Assembly (NCBI GenBank): GCA_017480795.1
Contig: JAFURY010000094.1
Coordinates: 1-64,000, forward strand
Length of the DNA: 64,000 nt
Reading direction: 5' to 3'
DNA from: Succinivibrionaceae bacterium
GTDB taxonomy: Bacteria > Pseudomonadota > Gammaproteobacteria > Enterobacterales > Succinivibrionaceae
The notes beneath the pieces were generated by a model. That model searched no databases. It saw nothing but the letters and a program-made list of their open reading frames with translations, and had not been told where the DNA came from. Positions 15,866-60,954 of this stretch are shown piece after piece; position 1 is the first letter of the stretch; each line of letters begins with the position of its first letter. The position numbers and the translations under genes are program-made.

Positions 15866-18703
15866 TCAGAATGGGTTGTCCGGGTCGTTGACTTCCTTGA
15901 AGCCGTCCATGTCCATTTTCATCTGCTCGGTTTCGGCCTTTGGCCCGTCCATAATGCCGCGCGGGATCCAGAGCAGGCGCTGGGATTTCCCGTCCACCTT
16001 TTTGACTCGCGTCGGCGTGTCGTCGCCCACGTCCGGCGGCAGCTTCAATATGCCGTCTGTCCGCAGGTGCTTGTAAAGGGCCTTGAGGCTCACGGGAAAC
16101 TCGGTGCCCTGCTCCCGGCATAGCTTTGAAACGCAGCCGAAGGCCACCTTGGGCAGCAGATAATAATAGTCGTTGTCGTAATAGCCGACCATATCCACGC
16201 CGGGCTTTTTGCCCTTGGCCTCCTCCGCGCCGGTCAGGTCTTTCATCATGATGCTGCCGCTGGCCAGCAGCTCGACCATGCTGTCCAGGAAGATGCGGGT
16301 GGGCTTTTCGTCGTCCATGCTCCGGGCCTGCTGCTTGCTGGTCGCGGTCAGCACGTGGTGGGCGTGCTCCAGCATGGCTTTCACTTCCTCGTGGGTGTAT
16401 AAGCCGATATTCCGAAAATAGTCCAGCATCATTGCGTAGCCGATCATGATGCAGGCCACGGTCTCCGGGGCGCGGCCCTCCATGCCATTGGCCTCGATGC
16501 ACATTTGCCGGAAATGGAGAAACATCCCGTGCAGCCTGTCCGGCAGGGTGTCGGTCTGTGCCTGGAGCCATTTGATATAGCCCAGCATGGCTTTTTGAAG
16601 GTAGCCCTTTCGCGCCGCTTCCTGCAAGTCGGTCAAATCCTTGCCCACTTCTATATCCCCCCTCTCCACATCGACGATGAAATAACGCGCCAGGCCGCTC
16701 TGGCCAACGGCGGGCAAGTCCTCGCCGGTGATAATGGCCACGCTGCGCGGCGGGTCGGTTGATTTGATGGTGCTGTCCGCGTTCAGTCGTCCACGGGCCA
16801 CGCCATCGCCGAAGGCGCGGGACAGCGCCTGGGCGGTTGCCGCCATCTGCTTCTTTTCCTGGATGCTGCTCACCGGGTGGTAATCATCCACCAGCAGCGG
16901 CATATCCTTGACCAGAAACGCCTTTTTCTGGATGTTCCGGCTGGTGTCGTTGAAGCTGGCGGGCGGGTTTTTCGCGTGGAAGTTTCCGAAGTGGCTCATG
17001 GCAAGGGACGCTGCTGTGGTCTTGCGGGTCTGCGTCTGTCCGTAGAGGAAGAGGCCGAAGGCGGGCACGACGTCCCTTTGCGTCATAAATTCCCGCAGCG
17101 GGGCCAGGTAGGTGGTGCCCAGCAGGGCCACCCCGATCTCCTCTTTCATGACGTATTGGAGGTTCATGCTTTTCTCCACCGCGTCCAGGAAGGTGATCTT
17201 GTCGAAGCCCTCCGCGCCGCTGCCGTCCAGCCGGTAGCCCTTCAGCGCGTCGCCCATGTCCACGGTCACGCCTTCCAGCCCTACGGCCCCGCCGTGGTAA
17301 AGGTAGCACCATTTCCCGCCGATGCGCCGCCAGCCCGTGTGGTTGTATTCGGTCACGCGCTTGGCCGTCATCTGGCCCACCTTTTTGACCGCCCAGGCCA
17401 CCTTATCCTTTGTGGCCGTGCCGGGGGCCAGGCTCGCGCTGAATCCCCACTTGCCGGTCACCCAGTTCATGGCGTCCAGTTCCTTGGCGCTGATGACCGC
17501 CCTGGGCAGCTTGCGCCCGTTGCAGTCCCAGCCGTCCAACACAAACCACATGGAAGTGTTCACGCCGTCGTCGCGGGTCAGCTCCATGCGGGGGATGACC
17601 ACAAAGTCGGTCAGCGCCTTGGTGGTGTCCTGGTTGATTTGGGAAATGCACCCGTTCACCACTCCGTAGCCGGTCACCCGGCTGTAGAGGGCGTTGGCCT
17701 GTTCCATGGGGGTCAGCCAGAAAGGCACCGAGCCGGGATCGAAGTCCCGCGTGGCGGCCACCTGCCGGGCCAGCGCCTCCATGGCTGCCTGGTCGCCCAT
17801 GATCTCCACCATGTCGCTGATGTCGCCCTTGGCGGGGATCTCCGGGCAGGCTTCCTTGATGTCCACCAGCCGCACCCGCTTGGCGAGGGGCTTGGTTTTG
17901 AGCGCCACGTCCAGCGCGTGGTTCTGGCCGGTGAAGTCGTTCTCCTTCACGTCACAGTCCGGCAGGATGATGACGTCCGCGCCCGCCAGCAGCAGCGAGT
18001 AGCTGTCGCGCCATTTGCCCGCGCCGCCGGGATTGCAGGTCGCCACGTGCCCCAGGCGCATTAGGGTCTCGACGTCCTTCTCGCCTTCCACCACATACAC
18101 CGGGCGGCCCTCCTGGATGGCGGCCTTCAGCTCCGGCATTTTGTAGAGCGTGTTGTCTCGCAGCTCGTCGGACACGCTCATCACGTAGCCCTGCTTGTTC
18201 GCCTTCGGGTTTGCCGGGTCGTAATGCCGCTGCCGAAAGGTCTTGCTCCGCTTGCCGTCCTTATACACGGGGTAGCGCACCACCTGGAAGAGCTCCTTCC
18301 CGTCCGCGCCGGTATAGCTGTACACCGCGTCCGGGTGTGCCCAGTCGATCTTGGCTTCCTCCGTCGGCTTCTCCGCAGGCTTCTCCGCTGCCGGTTTGGT
18401 CTGCGGCTTCGGGGCTGGCTTCTTCTTTTCCGCGCCCTTCTTCCATTTGCCGCCCGCCTTTGGTGGGTCGGGGTCGATGATAAGGTCGACGGGCTTTAAT
18501 CCGACCTGTGCCAGAATGGAGTCGTTGGAGCAGCCCGCATGGCAGCAGAGGAAAATGCGCAGGCGTCCGTCCGTTCCGGGCTTCACGCGGGCAGTCAGGC
18601 TGGCGGTCTTGTCGTCGTGACAAGGGCAGCGCATCGTGTATTCCCCGGCTTTATTCGGCCCGGACACGTGGTCGAATCGCTGGTTAAATTCCCTTATGTC
18701 CAT
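15866..18703 (-). CDS. Primase-helicase (TOPRIM plus DUF927-type ATPase)
   Basis: 945 residues from ATG 18703 (AAAGGG 11 nt upstream). N-terminal zinc site CPCH (26-29) and CCHAGC (53-58), K/P/A-rich linker, TOPRIM with VYVVEGEKDVETL near 199 and DVIILPDCD, then a DUF927-like helicase with P-loop variant LYGQTQTRKTT near 552 and Walker B LLVDDYHP near 599, and AIITGEDLP. Such fusions prime and unwind DNA at phage origins. It leads the replication genes. Confidence 0.88.
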   Translation of the reverse strand: MDIREFNQRFDHVSGPNKAGEYTMRCPCHDDKTASLTARVKPGTDGRLRIFLCCHAGCSNDSILAQVGLKPVDLIIDPDPPKAGGKWKKGAEKKKPAPKPQTKPAAEKPAEKPTEEAKIDWAHPDAVYSYTGADGKELFQVVRYPVYKDGKRSKTFRQRHYDPANPKANKQGYVMSVSDELRDNTLYKMPELKAAIQEGRPVYVVEGEKDVETLMRLGHVATCNPGGAGKWRDSYSLLLAGADVIILPDCDVKENDFTGQNHALDVALKTKPLAKRVRLVDIKEACPEIPAKGDISDMVEIMGDQAAMEALARQVAATRDFDPGSVPFWLTPMEQANALYSRVTGYGVVNGCISQINQDTTKALTDFVVIPRMELTRDDGVNTSMWFVLDGWDCNGRKLPRAVISAKELDAMNWVTGKWGFSASLAPGTATKDKVAWAVKKVGQMTAKRVTEYNHTGWRRIGGKWCYLYHGGAVGLEGVTVDMGDALKGYRLDGSGAEGFDKITFLDAVEKSMNLQYVMKEEIGVALLGTTYLAPLREFMTQRDVVPAFGLFLYGQTQTRKTTAASLAMSHFGNFHAKNPPASFNDTSRNIQKKAFLVKDMPLLVDDYHPVSSIQEKKQMAATAQALSRAFGDGVARGRLNADSTIKSTDPPRSVAIITGEDLPAVGQSGLARYFIVDVERGDIEVGKDLTDLQEAARKGYLQKAMLGYIKWLQAQTDTLPDRLHGMFLHFRQMCIEANGMEGRAPETVACIMIGYAMMLDYFRNIGLYTHEEVKAMLEHAHHVLTATSKQQARSMDDEKPTRIFLDSMVELLASGSIMMKDLTGAEEAKGKKPGVDMVGYYDNDYYYLLPKVAFGCVSKLCREQGTEFPVSLKALYKHLRTDGILKLPPDVGDDTPTRVKKVDGKSQRLLWIPRGIMDGPKAETEQMKMDMDGFKEVNDPDNPF

Positions 18704-18718
18704 AGCGTCGCCCACCCT

Positions 18719-19048
18719 TTACCGCTGTTTTTTCATCTGCTTCTTGATGGCCTCGACCACCGCGTCCAGGTCAAAAACGTATTGTTTACCTACCTTGTCG
18801 AAGGGCAGCCATCCCTCGCGGACGCCGCGCCGGATCGCCGACTCGCAAAGCCCCGTCTCCCGCATAACGTCCTGTATGGTCGAACGTTTCACGATGGGCG
18901 GCAGGATCTCCCGCGCCGTGTCCAGGTCAACCAGCGTGCGGCTCCCCAGCATCAGCACTTCCAGCTGGCCGTCGGCGATGGCCCGGCGCACCCGCGTCTC
19001 GGATATGCCCAGCTCCTCGCACACCACCCGCACGGTCTGCAAGTTCAT
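18719..19048 (-). CDS. HTH DNA-binding protein (excisionase/MerR-like)
   Basis: 109 residues with two similar winged-HTH-like halves: VRVVCEELGISETRVRRAIADGQLEVLMLGSRTLVDLDTA and IQDVMRETGLCESAIRRGVREGWLPFDKVGKQYVFDLDAV. Each resembles the helix-turn-helix_17/excisionase fold. Could be Xis or an early regulator; the tandem arrangement favours binding repeated DNA sites. Confidence 0.7.
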   Translation of the reverse strand: MNLQTVRVVCEELGISETRVRRAIADGQLEVLMLGSRTLVDLDTAREILPPIVKRSTIQDVMRETGLCESAIRRGVREGWLPFDKVGKQYVFDLDAVVEAIKKQMKKQR

Positions 19049-19263
19049 TTTGTCACCTCCTTCATGATGTCGATTTTTCCGTAACCGCTAAGGGCTGCTA
19101 TGATCTCGTCCTTGGACATATCAGCCGACCATGCTTTAATTAGGATACGCTTCTTTCCGTCCTTCGTGTCGATTACCGGGGCGGCCAGGCCTACGGTCAC
19201 GCCCTTGGGGTTGGGGCAATGTCCGCCCCACTTGAGCCCATTCATCATTTCCTGCATGGTCAT
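19045..19263 (-). CDS. Small hypothetical early protein
   Basis: 72 residues from ATG 19263, overlapping both neighbours by 4 nt. MTMQEMMNGLKWGGHCPNPKG, then a beta strand pair and SADMSKDEIIAALSGYGKIDIMKEV. Not recognised. Confidence 0.65.
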   Translation of the reverse strand: MTMQEMMNGLKWGGHCPNPKGVTVGLAAPVIDTKDGKKRILIKAWSADMSKDEIIAALSGYGKIDIMKEVTK

Positions 19264-19733
19264 TTCGTTACCTCCTTCACTGCGTCCTCGATTGCCGCGA
19301 TGCTGTCGTCCATGACCCGCCGGAGCGCCACCGCCTTTTCCTTCACCAGCCCCACGGCTTCCAGCTCGCCGCCGGTGATCTTCCCGTCGCTGGCCAGCCG
19401 CGCGAAGCGCAGCGCCATCTCCCGCATGTCGGTGGCCTCGATGGCCCACCGCAGCGCCGCCTGGGTGATGCAGCAGGCGCTGGTGCCGCCGTAATCCGGC
19501 AGCAGCGGGCAGTTCTCCTGGATGTGCTGCCGCTTCAGGTCGTGGTCGCCGTAGGCCTCCACCATCCGCTGCACCACGCCGCAGGGTGGCAACGTCCGTC
19601 CGTTTTCGTAGTCGCTCAATGCGTCCACGCTCACGAACAGCGCCTCGGCGGCCCGTTCCCGGCTCGAATACAGGGGCTCGTCCTGGGCCGCCCGCATCCG
19701 CGCGTTTCTGTAGATGTTGTCGTGTTTTTTCAT
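19260..19733 (-). CDS. XRE-family regulator, first early lytic gene (Cro-like)
   Basis: 157 residues from ATG 19733 (TTGGAGGGAAGG upstream). HTH in ARMRAAQDEPLYSSRERAAEALFVSVDALSDYENGRTLP, followed by a helical domain with Cys pairs (ENCPLLPDYGGTSACCITQAALRWAIEATDM). It is the first gene leftward of the divergent promoter region opposite the CI-like repressor, the position of Cro. Confidence 0.75.
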   Translation of the reverse strand: MKKHDNIYRNARMRAAQDEPLYSSRERAAEALFVSVDALSDYENGRTLPPCGVVQRMVEAYGDHDLKRQHIQENCPLLPDYGGTSACCITQAALRWAIEATDMREMALRFARLASDGKITGGELEAVGLVKEKAVALRRVMDDSIAAIEDAVKEVTK

Positions 19734-19799
19734 GCCCTTCCCTCCAATAAGGGTATAAACCCTGTTTTTTCGCCCATTTCCATGGTTTATTTCCCTTGA

Positions 19800-19819
19800 A
19801 TGTATCGTGCGCAATACAT
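19800..19819. promoter_or_regulatory. Candidate operator (20-bp inverted repeat)
   Basis: ATGTATCG and CAATACAT are near-perfect inverted arms around a 4-bp centre, 20-40 bp downstream of the leftward promoter -10. Likely repressor or Cro site. Confidence 0.55.
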
Positions 19820-19840
19820 ATAATGTGTTTAGTGTCTATC

Positions 19841-19869
19841 ATTGTACGGTTTTTTTTTTTTTTTGTCAA
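19841..19869 (-). promoter_or_regulatory. Leftward early (lytic) promoter, 17-bp spacer
   Basis: Minus strand TTGACA (19864-19869) and TACAAT (19841-19846) separated by 17 bp, most of which is the A run complementary to T 19850-19864 (15 bases). The second copy has 14 bases and a 16-bp spacer. It would drive the XRE gene and the replication operon. Confidence 0.75.
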
Positions 19870-19907: not shown

Positions 19908-19936
19908 GTAACAAATAAAACAGGATATGCTAAAAT
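19908..19936 (+). promoter_or_regulatory. Rightward (repressor) promoter
   Basis: Extended -10 TGCTAAAAT (TAAAAT at 19931-19936) with a weak -35 GTAACA 17 bp upstream. It precedes the CI-like gene start at 19965. Confidence 0.5.
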
Positions 19937-19964: not shown

Positions 19965-20486
19965 ATGTTCTACACGGGAAGTAGACTTGAACAGCTAAGA
20001 AAAGAGAAAAATCTGAATCAATCCGTCGTCGCGGATGAACTTCATATGTCCCGCAGCACGTTGTCCGGCTATGAAAAGGGCAAAATGCCCAGCATAGACC
20101 ACGCGCTCGCCCTGGCGAACTATTACCATGTGTCGCTGGACTACATCACCGGCCTGTCCTCCGAGCGCAGCATGAACGCCAGCGCTCTAATATCGTCCTT
20201 TATAACCCTCGGCAATCTCGCCGGGGCCTCCGCGCCAACGGCCAGTGACGTCAGCTCGTTGGTGGACGCCGCCATCATGTATATGTGCCAGGGCAAGCCC
20301 TGCGGAGAGCAGCCCCTCACGGCCTGGCGGGATTTCATGCGGCAGCTGACGGCCTGCCTCTCCGCTGCCACCCAGGGGGATGCCGCGAAGCTGGCCGACG
20401 CCGCCAACGCCGCCACCATCGCCGCCCTGGACGTCACCAAGATGCCCGCACGACTGCTCGAAAACAAAGGAGGCGCTTCAAGATGA
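19965..20486 (+). CDS. CI-like XRE repressor
   Basis: 173 residues, ATG 19965 with GAGGGGGTG upstream. Clear HTH_3 domain: LEQLRKEKNLNQSVVADELHMSRSTLSGYEKGKMPSIDHALALANYYHVSLDYITGLS (about 8-65). The rest is helical and Ala-rich, with no S24 peptidase motif, so it is not the LexA-type self-cleaving repressor; induction may use another route. Divergent from the Cro-like gene. Confidence 0.85.
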   Translation: MFYTGSRLEQLRKEKNLNQSVVADELHMSRSTLSGYEKGKMPSIDHALALANYYHVSLDYITGLSSERSMNASALISSFITLGNLAGASAPTASDVSSLVDAAIMYMCQGKPCGEQPLTAWRDFMRQLTACLSAATQGDAAKLADAANAATIAALDVTKMPARLLENKGGASR

Positions 20487-20982: not shown

Positions 20983-22320
20983 ATGGGCACAATAGAAAAG
21001 AGGGGTAAAAACAGCTGGCGTGTGGGCGTCCAGGTGTTTGATTTGTTCAAGGGTTGGCAATGGGTGAGAAAGACCATCCGCATGGATCCCGGCTTGTCCC
21101 AGGAAAAGCAGCGCGAGAAAGCCCAGGAGGCCCTGAACATACTTATGGAGGAAGTGGGGGCAAACCGGGAGCAGCCCGGCGACCTGGGGCACACCGTGCG
21201 CACCTGGTCGGACATATGGATGGAGCAGCACGTCAAGCCGAATTGTTCGCCGGTCACCTATGGCAATTACCGCTTCCTGCTGGACAGCCGTATCCTCCCG
21301 CTGCTGGGGGACGTGCCCCTGGTGCTGCTCACCCCCATGAAGCTCACCGAATGGCTCAACGCCGTCCGGGACGCGCCGCGCCTGTCCACCCGCCTGGAGG
21401 AAGAGGAGCTGGCCCGGCCCCGCGCCCCGTCGCAAAAGCTCACCACGGAAAAGCAGCAGGCAAAGCCCCTCAGTAACAAAACCGTGCTGCATTATTACAC
21501 CTGCATGGAGTCCATGTTGTCGGCAGCCGTCCGGCTGGAATACCTGGATCGCAATCCCATGGAGCGGGTCACGCGCCCGAAGGTCAGAAAGCCAAAGGTC
21601 AAAGTGCTGTCGGAGGAGCGTGCCGTGGAGCTGCTCCGCTGCCTGGCCGATGAGCCGAACATGTGCTATCGTTCAGCCGTGCTGCTGGCCCTGTTGTGCG
21701 GCCTGCGCCTGGGGGAAGTGGGGGAGCTGAAGCTGTCCGACGTGGACTTCGATAAATGGACGATTGACATTAGTCGGGCGCTGAAGTATTCACCCCGCGC
21801 GGGGAATTACGTCGCGGAGCCGAAAACCGAATCCAGCGAGCGCCTCATATCGCTGCCCATGGGGATGATGGTCGTGCTGGAGGAGACAAAGAAATACCAG
21901 GAAGAGTGCCAGCAGCTGGTGCCGCACTTGTGGAAGGGCGAGGGCTGGATCGTCCACGGCTGGGATGGGCGGCAGCTCCACCACGACACGCCATCGAAGT
22001 GGTTTCGGAAATTTGCCGACGCCCACGGCTTCCAGGGCGTGCGCTTTCACGATCTCAGGCACACCCACGCCTCCATCCTGCTGGGCAATAATATGGACGT
22101 GGTGGCCGTCGCGGGCCGCATGGGCCACGGGGATCCCACCACCACGCTGCGGGTCTATGCCCACGCGCTGGAGCGCCGCGACCGCGAAGCCGCCCGCACC
22201 CTCGACCGGCTCTTCGGTGACATCGCCATGCCGTCCCGGCCAGAGCTTCAGCTCACCCGCAAGGGCCAGCCCGCTGCCGACGATGCCCCCGCCCAGGATG
22301 ATGAAGCCCCGGTAAAGTGA
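20983..22320 (+). CDS. int: Tyrosine integrase
   Basis: 445 residues, ATG with GGAAGGAAG upstream. Arm-binding N-terminus (GTIEKRGKNSWRVGVQVFDLFKGW), SAM-like core-binding domain (TVRTWSDIWMEQHVKPNCSPVTYGNYRFLL, 71-100), catalytic domain with Arg242 (LLCGLRLGE), His356/Arg359 (HDLRHTH), His382 (GRMGHGD) and Tyr392 (VYAHALE). It integrates at the tRNA-Pro site located 163 nt downstream of its stop. Confidence 0.95.
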   Translation: MGTIEKRGKNSWRVGVQVFDLFKGWQWVRKTIRMDPGLSQEKQREKAQEALNILMEEVGANREQPGDLGHTVRTWSDIWMEQHVKPNCSPVTYGNYRFLLDSRILPLLGDVPLVLLTPMKLTEWLNAVRDAPRLSTRLEEEELARPRAPSQKLTTEKQQAKPLSNKTVLHYYTCMESMLSAAVRLEYLDRNPMERVTRPKVRKPKVKVLSEERAVELLRCLADEPNMCYRSAVLLALLCGLRLGEVGELKLSDVDFDKWTIDISRALKYSPRAGNYVAEPKTESSERLISLPMGMMVVLEETKKYQEECQQLVPHLWKGEGWIVHGWDGRQLHHDTPSKWFRKFADAHGFQGVRFHDLRHTHASILLGNNMDVVAVAGRMGHGDPTTTLRVYAHALERRDREAARTLDRLFGDIAMPSRPELQLTRKGQPAADDAPAQDDEAPVK

Positions 22321-23768: not shown

Positions 23769-24747
23769 TCATCCTCCCATTAAATCGAATATCCCCACCT
23801 GGTCGAGCCCCGCGCCGGGTTGCTGGGCTTCCAGGCTGTACAGTCCCACCTGGGCGCACTCACGCTCCAGGCGTTCCATCGCCATGCGGTAATACTCCGG
23901 GTCGATCTCATACCCCCAGGCGTCGATGCCCGCCCGGTGGCAGGCCACCAGGCTGCTGGCGCTGCCCGCGTGGGTGTCCAGTATCTTCATGCCCCGCTTG
24001 GCGTATAGCTTCAAAAGCCATGAATACAGCGCCACGGGCTTTTACGTGGGGTGGAATCGCTCCTCGCCCTTTTTCCCTTGCGGCAGGTAATGGAATAGCT
24101 TGGCGTTCGCATTAAACGACGTCCAGGCATACTCGCACATCGCCATGGAGAATTTTTCCGCTATGCCCTTGTCCCACACTACAAAGCACCGCGTCGGCGG
24201 CAAATCAAAGTAATTCCCGCCCCATATAATCTGGTTTTTGCTGACCCTGGCCAGCTCGTCGAAGTATTCTTGAGGCGGCGCGACATCCCAGTGCCGGACG
24301 TCTGCCGCCCCCGTCGTTCCCGCTGGTATTTCCTCGACCACGTTCCCCCTGTCCGGGTTGCTGATATGGTAGCGGTCAAACCGCTGTCCCCAGCGTCCTC
24401 TGTCTTTACGCTGCCAGTCGGTGCCCCCCCCGCAGGGCTGGGCTGGCCCGACATAGTATTTTCTGAAAATGCCTGAACCGAAGCGCCCGCGCGGGCCGTT
24501 CCAGTCTGCACCGCCGCCCCGAAGGCCGCTTCGATGTGATACTTGTTGAATATTCCCCCGAACCGGCTCCATTTCCGCTGCGTCCAGTCCGATGCCCCCC
24601 CCCCCGCAGGGCGGTGGCGTCGTCCTCTTTGTAGCCGCCGCCGTAGGGCGGGTCTACAATAGCCAAATCGAAAAAGCCGTCCGGGAATTGTTTCATGGCT
24701 TCCATGCAGTCCATGTTGTAGAGCCCCGGCTCCATGATTTTGTCCAT
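23769..24747 (-). pseudogene. DNA adenine methyltransferase, interrupted (possibly phase-variable)
   Basis: N-terminus MDKIMEPGLYNMDCMEAMKQFPDGFFDLAIVDPPYGGG carries motif IV DPPY. The frame is lost near a G11 tract (24595-24605, minus strand). Sequence with DVRHWDVAPPQEYFDELARVSKNQIIWGGNYFDLPPTRCFVVWDKG resumes in another frame and ends at TAA (24042-24044), replacing the Gln expected in the conserved FHPTQKP motif. The rest, VALYSWLLKLYAKRGMKILDTHAGSASS (motif I-type), continues in that frame to 23769. A second G8 tract (24424-24431) lies in a duplicated segment. N4/N6 class beta-type order. Inactive as read. Confidence 0.8.
24363..24611. repeat. Diverged duplication with two poly-G tracts inside methyltransferase
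   Basis: Segments 24533-24611 and 24363-24437 (minus strand) both begin CCCTGC plus a G run (11 and 8), then GCAyCGACTGG-like sequence, and reach a TTTGAC/TTCAAC...TACCATATC/TATCACATC end. Encodes RFGGIFNKYHI and QRFDRYHI in the respective frames. Confidence 0.6.
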
Positions 24748-31057: not shown

Positions 31058-31225
31058 TCAGCACCATCCCTCCATATCCTCGCGGAGCTTCTGCTCCGCT
31101 GCTTCCAGTTGCCCGTCCTCGGTTTCAATGCCGTGCATGGCCAGCAGCTCGGCCTGCCGGTTGATGATGTCCAGCGCCATGCGCAGCATGTCCTCAAACC
31201 GCGCGATGATTTCCAAATGGCTCAC
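31058..31225 (-). CDS. 55-residue helical protein between RT and endolysin
   Basis: GTG 31225 (AGGGGG upstream), stop TGA abuts the endolysin ATG. MSHLEIIARFEDMLRMALDI then INRQAELLAMHGIETEDGQL: helical, acidic. Overlaps the RT C-terminus by 32 nt. Similar small genes precede lysis modules in Clostridia phages. Too short for a classical DGR Avd protein (about 120 residues). Confidence 0.65.
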   Translation of the reverse strand: MSHLEIIARFEDMLRMALDIINRQAELLAMHGIETEDGQLEAAEQKLREDMEGWC

Positions 31226-32279
31226 CGGGCACCCGCCCCCTCGCTACATTCTTGATCTTGTGCCGGTCTAACCCGCCGAAGTAGCGCCGCTTCGCCTGCA
31301 CGCAGTCGGCGTGCTTCAGGCTCCCGGCCCGGCTCAGTATGCCCGCTGCGGCATGGAATGAGGGCAGCCGCCCTGCGGCCAGGGCCTTGCCCACCTTCCT
31401 GCATTGTCGGGTGAATCGCAAAAACGGCTTCGCCCGCAGGCGGGTGTGGCTGTGAAAGAACCGATAGCCCACGAAGTTCACGCCCCGCGCGTCCACCGGG
31501 AACACCTGCCAGTCGCCCTTCAAATGGACGCCCAGCTGCTCCCGCAGCCGCTTGTCGATGGCCTTCACGGCCCGGTGCAGCTTTTTCTTGTTCGGCCCCA
31601 TGAGCACCATGTCGTCCATGTTCCGAACGTAATACTTGACCCCGTCCAGCGTCAGGATGAAGGTGTCCACCGCCTCCAGGTTGAAGTTCGCCAGCCATTG
31701 GTTCGGGTAAAACCCGATGCCCAGCCCCGGCAGCGGATTCGACCGCACCACGCTTTCCACCAGCCGGAGGAAGCGCTCGTCCTTGATCTTGTGCCGCAGC
31801 CTGCCCATGAGGCCGTCAATATCCATGCTCGGGTAATAGTGCCGGATGTCCAGCTTTGCGCAGTATTTCGTGCCGCGCGGATCTCCGTCCAGCGCCCGCC
31901 GCACGTACTTCCTCGCCCAGGCGTTCCCACGTCCGGGGATGCTCGCGCAGCTGAAGCGGTACATGCCCCGCATGATGACCGGCTCCATGGCCATCACGAT
32001 CAGCTGGTGCATAATGCCGTCCGGGTAAAATGGCACAATCGTGATGTCCCGGTCTTTCCCGCAGCTCTTGTCGTGGATGTGCTTCACCTTCGGCCTGGTC
32101 GGCGTGTAGGTGCCCGTGACCAGCAGGTTGTAAACCTTGTCCACGTATTTCTCCGGGTCTTTCAGCACCCGCCGCACGTCCCGGCGGTGCTTCTTTTTCT
32201 TGCTGCCATTCCTGATGGCCAGCCGGATCTGGTCTTTGTCGCACATCTTTTCGTAAAGATGGCCCACCCTTTTAGGCAT
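31194..32279 (-). CDS. DGR reverse transcriptase
   Basis: 361 residues. Motif A AKLDIRHYYPS (Asp144), group-specific motif GFYPNQ (189-194, in place of the retroviral QGxxxSP and like the DGR G-x-x-x-S/N-Q), and the catalytic pair Asp222-Asp223 in YYVRNMDDMVLMGPNKKKLH, where the usual YxDD Tyr is Asn. AAGGAGG precedes the start. Copies the template RNA with errors at adenines to diversify the receptor-binding protein gene. Confidence 0.92.
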   Translation of the reverse strand: MPKRVGHLYEKMCDKDQIRLAIRNGSKKKKHRRDVRRVLKDPEKYVDKVYNLLVTGTYTPTRPKVKHIHDKSCGKDRDITIVPFYPDGIMHQLIVMAMEPVIMRGMYRFSCASIPGRGNAWARKYVRRALDGDPRGTKYCAKLDIRHYYPSMDIDGLMGRLRHKIKDERFLRLVESVVRSNPLPGLGIGFYPNQWLANFNLEAVDTFILTLDGVKYYVRNMDDMVLMGPNKKKLHRAVKAIDKRLREQLGVHLKGDWQVFPVDARGVNFVGYRFFHSHTRLRAKPFLRFTRQCRKVGKALAAGRLPSFHAAAGILSRAGSLKHADCVQAKRRYFGGLDRHKIKNVARGRVPGEPFGNHRAV

Positions 32280-32455
32280 GATCCATAAATGCCTCCTTGT
32301 TTACCTCGGGACGTTTCGAGGCGCGGCCCCCGCCCGGCCCCACTGGGGTGGCGGTTGGCCGCGTCCTACTATGCCCCGTCCTGTCGGTAGAATTTTCAGC
32401 CAGTGCTGCGGAGATACCCACGCAATGAATAACAAGCGATATTTATAAACAAGGT

Positions 32456-32589
32456 GACGGGAGCCGATGTTCGCGTTCGCGTTGGTCGTCGAGTTGTTCG
32501 CGTTGAAGTAGAAAGCACCGTAGTTCCCGTTGGCGTTGTAGTTGCCGCCACAGTACAGCACCCGGACGCCGGAGCTGTTGGAGTTCACG
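32456..32589 (-). repeat. DGR template repeat (TR)
   Basis: 134 nt matching the variable repeat at 32732-32865 except for 15 bases, all adenines on the TR coding strand. Rich in AAC codons (12 of the 13 variable codons are AAC). It lies between the RT and the target gene and is not translated as part of a gene. Confidence 0.95.
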
Positions 32590-32690
32590 GAGCGTAAAAT
32601 CGGCCCAAAGCGTGAGTATCCCCTTGCTTTATTACATCAATGGAATCAGTCCTTTCGTGTAGTTACGCAGCATAGCCTTGATACGTTCCC

Positions 32691-32706
32691 GGGGGCTGCG
32701 GCCCCC
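32691..32706. other. GC hairpin downstream of the variable repeat
   Basis: GGGGGC-TGCG-GCCCCC, 6-bp stem and 4-nt loop, 8 nt after the target-gene stop. DGRs carry such a hairpin/cruciform just past the initiation-of-homing site. Confidence 0.7.
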
Positions 32707-32714
32707 AGTCCCCC

Positions 32715-35700
32715 TCAGGGATTGTAAAGGAGACGGGAGCCGATGTACGCGTACGCGCTGGTCGACGAGTAGTCCGCGCCGAAGTAGAAAGCACCGTAGC
32801 CCCCGTAGGCGCTGTAGTAGCCGCCACAGTACAGCACCCGGACGCCGGAGCTGTAGGAGTACACGTAATCCGGGATATAAGTAGTTTCACTACCGCTGCT
32901 TGCAGTGTCCGGGATAAACGCCCACGGGCACTTATCCGAATAACCAAGGCCGGTAATGTAACCGCTGCTGGGCAAGGTGATGCCCGCAGCCTCCATGCCC
33001 GAAGTGGATTCTCCATAGCTCGCCGGGTCGGTGCTGATGTAGCTGGCCCTGCTGCTGGCCACGTAGCCGTCCACCCAGGTCAGCATATTGCTGAACGGGT
33101 TCTCGATCCAGCGGTAGGCGTTGGTCGCGCCGCTGCGCTTGATGGTGTGGTAGGTCGCGCCCGTCGTCCCGCCGGTGTTGGTCACGCTGCCGGTATTGTG
33201 GCCGGTGCCCAGCACGTCCTGCGCGTGGAAGTTCGCAAACTCCACCAGGTAGAGCATCTGGATGGCGCTCCAGACCTTCAAATCCATCTGCCGCCAGCCG
33301 GTGCCCTTCGCCGCCGAGTACGTCCTGAAGTTGGCGCGGGTCACATTGCCCAGCGGGGCCACGCCGCTCTTGGAGTACACCGCGCTGCTGCTGCCGCTGG
33401 TGTGGAAGCGGCCCACGTACACGCCGGAGCCGGGGTGCTTTTCGTAGCCGGTCTTTGCCGTCGGGCTGATTGCCCACGTCCACCGGGTGTTGTCGGTGTT
33501 CTTTTCCGCCTTGTAGTAAAACTCGGGGATATAGACCACCGTGTCGTTGTTGGTCTCGTCGAAGCTGGCGTCGGTGTCGGGCACCAGGGATCCGTTCACC
33601 ACGTTGTAGCGCTTCATGTCCTTCCACGGCGCAACGGTATCAAACGGCGAGGAGCCGCTGCCGGACACGCTGGTGGCCGGGACGGGATCCGCAAAGCTTG
33701 CAGCCAGGCCACCACGGGCCAGGCCGGTCTTGTTCTGCGAGTAATCCCACTGGGCCGCATAGGTGCCGGTCACGTCAAAGGTCGGATCAGTCCAGACCGT
33801 GCCGGACGCCTCAAACACCGCAGTGTAGGTCGTGTTCGCGTGGATCACGCCCAGGGCCGGGCTCCAGTCCTTGAATTTGTACCCCTCGCGGGTAGTGGTC
33901 GGCGTCGTGATGCCGTCGGCGGTCACCGTCTGGCCGTCCTGGTACTGCTTCGTCCCCAGCGTCTGCCCGCCGTCCTCCGCTGCGGTCACGAAGGTGGCCG
34001 TGTAAACGGGGATGTAGCTGGCCTTGTAGGTCTGCGGCCCGGTCACCGTGGTGATGGTCGGGCTCCAGCCCTGGAAGGGCTTGCTGGAATCCGTCTTGCT
34101 CACCGGCGTGCCGCCCTTGTAGCTGGGCTGATCGCCATAGTTGTAAGTCTCGGTCGCCAGGGCGCTGTTGTCGTCGTTGACCCAGTTGATGGTATAGCTG
34201 CGCACCGTGCGGCTGTAGGCCGCGTACAGCGTCAGGTCGCTGTCGCTGACCGTGCTGGCGTCAAAGTTCGCCGTCTGGGCGTCCTGCGCCGTGTTCCAGC
34301 CCACCGCAGCGAAGGTGTGCTGGTCGGTCTGCGTCCGGGCAGGGACGCTCGGCAGCGGGCCGTTGGGCCTGCCGTCGGAATACTCCACCGTGCCGATGGT
34401 CGTCGAGCCGTCCCAGCTCTTGAAGGTCTTGGTGGAGGAAGTGTGGTCAGCGGTCACGTTGATGGTGGGGTAGCGCTCCTTCCAGCGGGCGATGTCGTCG
34501 CCGCGCAGGGAATCGGCGTGGATCGTGCCGCTCACCTGGGCGTCGTCCACTTCCTCGCCCTGGCCCTGGCCGTTGATCTCAATGCCGCGCATGGTGTCCA
34601 GCTTGTCCATGAGGGCGTCAATTTCCGCTGCGTTCGCCGCCTCCCAGTAGAAGCCGGTGATGCGCACGGCGGTGCCCGTGGGCACGCGGTTCAGAATCGC
34701 CTTGCTGTCCAGGCCAGTCATGTTTTCCAGCCAAAGCTGGTCGATGTTGTCCCAGCCCTCCAGCACCAGGTTCGCGTCCGTCAGCCGGGGCTGGTTGCGA
34801 ATCACCAGGCTGCTGGTGGTCGCGGGCAGCTTCAAAACGTCCAGCACGCCGCCGTTGGGCAGGTCAACGCCCTGGAGCGCCGTGCCCGTCGCGTACACCT
34901 TCTGGAGGTTGGGGCACTGGGTCAGCGTCAGCACCTTCTGGGTATCGGTGCCGAAGTTCACGCAGCCCGTCAGCTCCACCAGAGTCAGCTTCTTATTTGC
35001 GCCCGCCGACACTTCTGTGGTCATTTCGTTGCGGTAGCCCGCCTCCTGGCTGCCCAGACGGATGGCCTGGAGGTTTTCGGCCTTGGAGCCGTCGAAATAC
35101 TGCACGTTCAGCTTTTCAAGGCCGAAGATGTCCTTAATCATCTTGGCGCTGTGCAGGTTGCACACGGCCTGGTTGGCGTCCGTGTAAGGGTTCTCGCACT
35201 GATACGTCAGCGTGTCGCCCACCAGACGCCCGCCGGTGGCGGTGTCGTCCCACAGCAGCTTCACGTAGCCCTTTTTGTACAGCTCCACCGTCACATCGTA
35301 GTCGCCGCTGGCCCGCTGCGCCTCCGTAATGTGGTAGTAGGGCCGGAACATGATGGTCTGCAGCGCGTCGCCCGCGTCGAACAGACTGTCACAGTAGGGG
35401 AAGCGCCAGGTCAGGAAGTCGGTGCGGTGGCCCTGCTTATTGCCCAGCGCCATGGACAGGTAGGTCGTGATGCCGTCGGTGCGCAGCGGGTTGGTGTACT
35501 TGTACTCGCCGTCCTCGTTCCACATGGCCTCCGGCCAGTTGCCCTGCCAGACGTCGATCAGCGCGTTGATATACTCCGCCGAGAACATGCCGGTGGAGCG
35601 CATCCGCTGATACGTGGTGCAGCAGCGATCCCAGAAGGCCTGCCGGAAGTTCACCCACTTCACGTTGTCCTGGCCGTTGTAGACATTCTTGCCGCCGACC

Positions 35701-60926: not shown

Positions 60927-60954
60927 ATTGTACGGTTTTTTTTTTTTTTGTCAA
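60927..60954 (-). promoter_or_regulatory. Leftward early promoter with 16-bp spacer (second copy)
   Basis: TTGACA (60949-60954) and TACAAT (60927-60932) are unchanged, but the T run is 14 long (60936-60949), so the spacer is 16 bp instead of the 17 bp at 19841-19869. Confidence 0.75.

Follow-up and report, generated by a model that had tools for sequence, protein, structure and literature searches.

Can a homopolymer that sits between the two boxes of a phage early promoter change in length, and could such changes bear on the choice between lysis and lysogeny? The question is raised by the window, a stretch of 64,000 nucleotides taken from a contig of 73,830 bp (G000:C76) that holds about 1.8 copies of a temperate phage unit of 41,086 bp. 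The initial annotation held that a T-run is the only difference between the two genome copies, and this was borne out over the 32.7 kb present twice: there are no mismatches upstream of the run, none in 3,055 bases downstream of it within the window, and none in the 12,875 bases compared downstream when the whole contig is used. The lengths and positions given to the two runs were confirmed as well.

19850-19864, plus strand: T15 homopolymer of copy 1 (A15 on the promoter strand)
60936-60949, plus strand: T14 homopolymer of copy 2

The C8 and C11 runs of the unit have the same length in both copies. No other A/T run in the unit exceeds 7 bases, and a run of at least 14 arose in 4 of 20,000 simulations under a first-order Markov model trained on the intergenic region minus the run. 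The presence of the T-tract is not due to chance.

The tract occupies the spacer of a leftward early promoter that is the best predicted of the region (11/12 consensus, both boxes being predicted).

19864-19869, minus strand: -35 box TTGACA of copy 1, with one base common to the run
19841-19846, minus strand: -10 box TACAAT of copy 1, spacer of 17 bp
60927-60954, minus strand: leftward early promoter of copy 2, TTGACA-16-TACAAT

Read on the minus strand, TTGACA-17-TACAAT spans 19869-19841 in copy 1, and its counterpart with a 16-bp spacer spans 60954-60927 in copy 2, which upholds, for predicted boxes, the earlier placement of the run within the spacer (17 versus 16 bp) and facing the CI-like gene. 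The pattern TTGACA-N15-18-TANAATG has two matches in the window, which are the promoters of the two copies, and none in 100 shuffles. The promoter is directed towards the Cro-like and primase-like genes and opposes the CI-like gene. The HTH repressor-like gene and the Cro-like gene diverge, and the predicted early promoter lies between them, in a CI/Cro-type switch layout. Lambda has the same layout, with an early promoter between divergent repressor and Cro genes; its early promoters are not known to contain a homopolymer.

19260-19733, minus strand: Cro-like HTH regulator, 157 aa, first gene of the leftward operon (PHROG 6499, Pfam HTH_31)
18719-19048, minus strand: HTH_17 excisionase-like protein, leftward operon
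15866-18715, minus strand: primase/helicase-like protein, 949 aa, leftward operon
19965-20486, plus strand: CI-like HTH_3 regulator, 173 aa (PHROG 8)
20983-22320, plus strand: tyrosine integrase, 445 aa
22478-22527, no strand assigned: attP core, with a match to the end of tRNA-Pro(cgg) where phage and host DNA join in the JAFUCP prophage

The unit also encodes a large terminase and a reverse transcriptase. This phage integrates and excises: JAFUCP010000076.1, a contig of a Clostridia MAG from roe deer jejunum, holds it as a prophage at tRNA-Pro(cgg), and attP is found uninterrupted, twice, in the window contig. The family of the integrated copy and of the relatives differs from that of the window's MAG. 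In a search of 394 genomes of the window's order with alignment A1, the window genome was the only match, and the true host may thus be another than the bin; mis-binning of the phage contig or a broad host range could explain this.

Two further promoters are predicted around the tract.

19796-19824, plus strand: opposite-facing promoter TTGAAT-17-TATAAT (prediction only)
19908-19936, plus strand: CI-proximal promoter with a TG-extended -10, GTAACA-17-TAAAAT (prediction only)

In a transcript from the first of these, the T-run would lie at about +20 to +34. This promoter and the A-tract promoter point at each other, with overlapping predicted starts, and such face-to-face promoters recall P2/186 arrangements. 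The spacer of the opposite-facing promoter is of 17 bp in 6 of the 7 tract-bearing lineages, whereas the A-tract spacer ranges from 15 to 18 bp. Other possible roles were also considered, and those of a terminator and of a coding sequence were set aside. Candidate dyads that could serve as CI operators beside the early promoter are mostly no better than shuffles, and dyads beyond the -10 seldom exceed them (the best, in L011, is reached by 1 of 60 shuffles, and that of the window by 10 of 60). A terminator role finds the region's single terminator-like site elsewhere (19750), with folding no better than in shuffles. As for coding, ORFs cross the run on both strands, but their frames and starts vary between copies and relatives, and better starts lie beyond the run at 19965 (plus strand) and 19733 (minus strand).

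Relatives were found through the CI-like protein, its alignment and that of the Cro-like protein, and eleven lineages carry both genes (window/L014, L010, L015, L033, L011, L012, L016, L039, L040, L041 and L042; L033 is near-identical to L080, and L011 lies on the same contig as L082). The homopolymer between predicted -35 and -10 boxes is present in 7/7 of the closest lineages, the window among them, those with a CI-like identity of at least 51%, all of which have a pure, unbroken A-tract of 11-16 bases in the same spacer. Length varies among related phages, a comparison that the initial annotation had suggested: across the seven lineages the runs measure 15/14/14, 14, 16, 11, 12, 15 and 13 bases, and the matching spacers 17/16/16, 16, 18, 15, 15, 17 and 16 bp. 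Each tract adjoins the TTGACA of the leftward promoter or lies one base off it, as in L033, where a single C intervenes. In the other six lineages the promoter is 85-96% identical to that of the window, and the flanks are at about the shuffled level where enough columns were aligned, three flank alignments that kept just 2-14 columns being uninformative. The Cro-side flanks slightly exceed their controls in L010 (0.78 versus 0.72) and L015 (0.80 versus 0.70).

The four lineages with a CI identity of at most 45% are without the tract, and their spacers include those of L039 (TTGACA-17-TAAAAT), L040 (TTGACA-17-TAATAT) and L041 (TTGCAT-17-TATAAT). L039, with its 17-bp non-homopolymer spacer, clusters with the tract-bearing L012 (support 93), which means that the tract either can be done without or has been lost; this grouping speaks against a simple single gain, and loss, recombination or repeated gain would account for it. 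L079 and L080 are 99.8% identical over 5,984 bp and both have a run of 11; just past the promoter, these two IMG/VR records differ by clustered changes, most of them to A. L081 is 100% identical to L082 over 5,044 bp and starts 16 bp past the tract, an adjacent assembly break. The matches L043-L065 are to the HTH region, and the run scan covered L043, L044, L045 and L049 among them. L013, an HTH-only match with a different upstream sequence, was left out of the counts, L083 and L084 are unrelated matches, and in L073, which has the Cro-like gene only, a promoter match was not found.

The collections searched for the promoter and its phage were IMG/VR, GTDB genomes and phages, without metagenome contigs. 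An exact scan of IMG/VR (2.9 million contigs) for TTGACA-A12-N2-6-TANAAT returned three contigs, all three of this phage group, and the exact flank pattern had no matches there. In the host family, a similar pattern occurred in 4 of 308 genomes, at five sites, two from this phage and three bacterial; it allowed spacers of at most 17 bp, so that of G058 (18 bp) was missed by design. Among A/T runs of at least 12 bases, the promoter tract is the sole one in two genomes that bear the prophage, G056 (3.4 Mb) and G058 (2.9 Mb), and one of four in G060, and G000 has one more, on contig C46. Against phages, neither a megablast search with 10 kb nor a search with the Cro-like protein gave a match, and the CI-like protein matched 33 records, each at less than 60% identity and over less than 80% of the query. 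Rare promoter-like sites with a poly-A spacer were also seen in the host family, within DNA that is bacterial (L090 and L092 in G602, L089 in G499, L096 on contig C35 of G060), and these are possible chromosomal counterparts.

In near-identical copies of the phage, the run is T15 in copy 1, T14 in copy 2 and T14 in the JAFUCP prophage. Over 41.1 kb aligned, the prophage differs from the window by two SNPs (one in the att core), by C10 versus C11, and by 16 substitutions in the variable repeat of a diversity-generating retroelement (DGR), while its T-run equals that of copy 2. All 16 changes fall at template adenines, which is what a working DGR would produce. The last base of the contig directly precedes the first DGR-variable position (32745/32746); the population sampled is therefore likely to have been mixed. 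Variation within a population thus comprises one T15/T14 pair and one T14 prophage, the differing lengths being otherwise between lineages. The DGR itself spans 31194-32865, with the reverse transcriptase at 31194-32279 (minus strand), an Rfam RT-18 RNA at 32293-32408 (minus strand), the template at 32451-32589 and the variable repeat at 32727-32865; two natural variable repeats are known from it, with 16 differing positions.

The explanation that we favour, with a confidence slightly short of even, is that these temperate phages of gut Clostridia carry a conserved, slippage-prone poly(dA:dT) spacer in their leftward early (lytic) promoter, which tunes early-gene expression. Replication slippage would often alter the run length by single bases, and each change would reset the -35/-10 distance and phasing; through this reset, the strength of the early promoter relative to the repressor is proposed to change. 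The members of a phage population would differ in their propensity for induction or lysogenisation, and the outcome would be a heritable, reversible rheostat and not an on/off switch. Judging from the sequences, random one-base slips could retune the choice between killing and dormancy. The fixed 17-bp spacer of the facing promoter (6/7), against the drifting 15-18 bp of the A-tract spacer, fits a homopolymer slipping within a working range. The assembly break beside the tract in L081 counts in favour of this explanation, and the equal runs of L079 and L080, together with the tract-free L039, count against it. The phase-variable lysis/lysogeny switch originally proposed for this run is supported in part, by the site in the spacer, by the pure tract of variable length in seven lineages and by the T15/T14/T14 copies. 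Its strong form fares less well: in excerpts of a study on a synthetic library in E. coli, spacers of 16 and 17 bp give the same strength on average (PMC8695583), so the step from 17 to 16 bp may have little effect, and a graded rheostat fits better.

Homopolymers in promoter spacers belong to a class of mechanism already known in bacteria. In M. hyorhinis, a poly-A tract between -35 and -10 controls vlp expression; those genes encode Mycoplasma surface antigens, whereas the present tract lies in a phage early promoter. According to excerpts of one paper, H. pylori promoters contain A/T homopolymers of 9-16 bases, some of them between -35 and -10, as with the 14A of hopZ and babB, and in sabA and hp_0350 the tract length tunes output in a rheostat-like manner (PMC4081817). 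The H. pylori tracts described there belong to chromosomal genes in which outer-membrane proteins are over-represented, in contrast to a single tract in the early promoter of a 62% GC temperate phage. In Neisseria, the portions of a further source that we consulted place a repeat tract between -10 and -35 of fetA and porA, and the length of the fetA poly-C changes spacing and transcription (PMC5320596); these are poly-C or mixed T/G tracts of bacterial surface-protein genes, unlike the phage poly-A/T. In S. pyogenes, T9-T11 lies between the divergent genes Spy1336/R28-Spy1337, and a one-base change shifts both transcripts (PMC7098570), but this tract serves a virulence-gene pair and is not placed as a -35/-10 spacer in the passages of that paper at hand.

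The same tract might instead be kept for DNA structure, a rather doubtful alternative, with stiff, pure poly(dA:dT) serving promoter strength, repressor binding or host-protein binding and changes of one or two bases being tolerated noise. Such a role agrees with a purity better conserved than length, with every spacer lying within 15-18 bp, and with the equal strength that 16- and 17-bp spacers can have (excerpts of PMC8695583). It sits less easily with L039 and L040, which have the same gene pair and manage without the tract, and interrupted A-tracts might be expected to be tolerated, yet 7/7 lineages are unbroken. We favour the rheostat over this structural role on the strength of the A/T-tract tuning in H. 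pylori and the poly-C tuning of fetA. The action could also lie on the opposite strand, where the facing promoter would place a U-tract in the CI leader and its length would govern pausing, slippage or early termination; this is unlikely, in spite of the recurrence of TTGAAT-17-TATAAT in position and with a 17-bp spacer in 6/7 lineages, since the hairpin ahead of the run is no stronger than shuffles (z -0.66), a nearer promoter-like site with a TG-extended -10 lies ahead of CI in the window, and the tracts adjoin, or sit one base off, the leftward TTGACA. Homopolymers can grow by slippage, and the tract could be a functionless product of it; we hold this neutral origin to be very improbable for a tract that is unique in the phage unit, is kept in seven lineages though the flanks are near background, and has its IMG/VR matches in this phage group only (3/3).

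A different matter is whether the T15/T14 difference is a sequencing or assembly error, the tract being real and its variation here not. We consider this quite possible, if on balance not the probable account. Homopolymer runs of this length are error-prone, and the assembly has made the contig longer than the 41-kb phage unit that it represents. The T14 copy, moreover, agrees with the JAFUCP prophage, which apparently comes from the RGIG study, with PCR-free Illumina libraries according to excerpts of PMC8199421. Against error stand the C11 run, the same in both copies, the contig end beside the DGR-variable position with its probably mixed population, and the differing run lengths of relatives. 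The initial annotation had named sequencing error as the main alternative; it may account for the T15/T14 pair but cannot explain the conserved tract. Such an error is possible under either the rheostat or the structural reading, so the confidences overlap.

The usual account of lysis-lysogeny decisions rests on protein circuits and the conditions of infection. If the rheostat reading is true, a conserved hypermutable spacer makes the lysis-lysogeny set-point an inherited, fast-evolving trait, one measurable through tract-length counts in virions and lysogens. A broader view, which we advance tentatively and with less assurance, treats the tract as a contingency locus in the master early promoter, its slipping poly-A spacer acting as a mutational bet-hedge between lysis and lysogeny beside the DGR and a methyltransferase gene with a G-tract-dependent frame; a population would then contain a range of early-promoter strengths, each heritable and reversible. 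Among the entries listed for open-access papers on phage and prophage homopolymer phase variation, repressors and early promoters, no such phage promoter was found. The signature TTGAC, A11-16, N3-5, TANAAT can be used to find such phages.

The methyltransferase gene offers a separate observation. It encodes a phage N6/N4 DNA methyltransferase (PF01555; 24406-24753, minus strand) and has two G-tracts, C8 at 24424-24431 and C11 at 24595-24605. Its frame in the window is broken at the second tract, with another stop further downstream, and is open in a relative (L026:18956-19933, 325 aa). The L010 contig terminates within a C18 run at the site of the first tract, and from its sequence the gene looks phase-variable.
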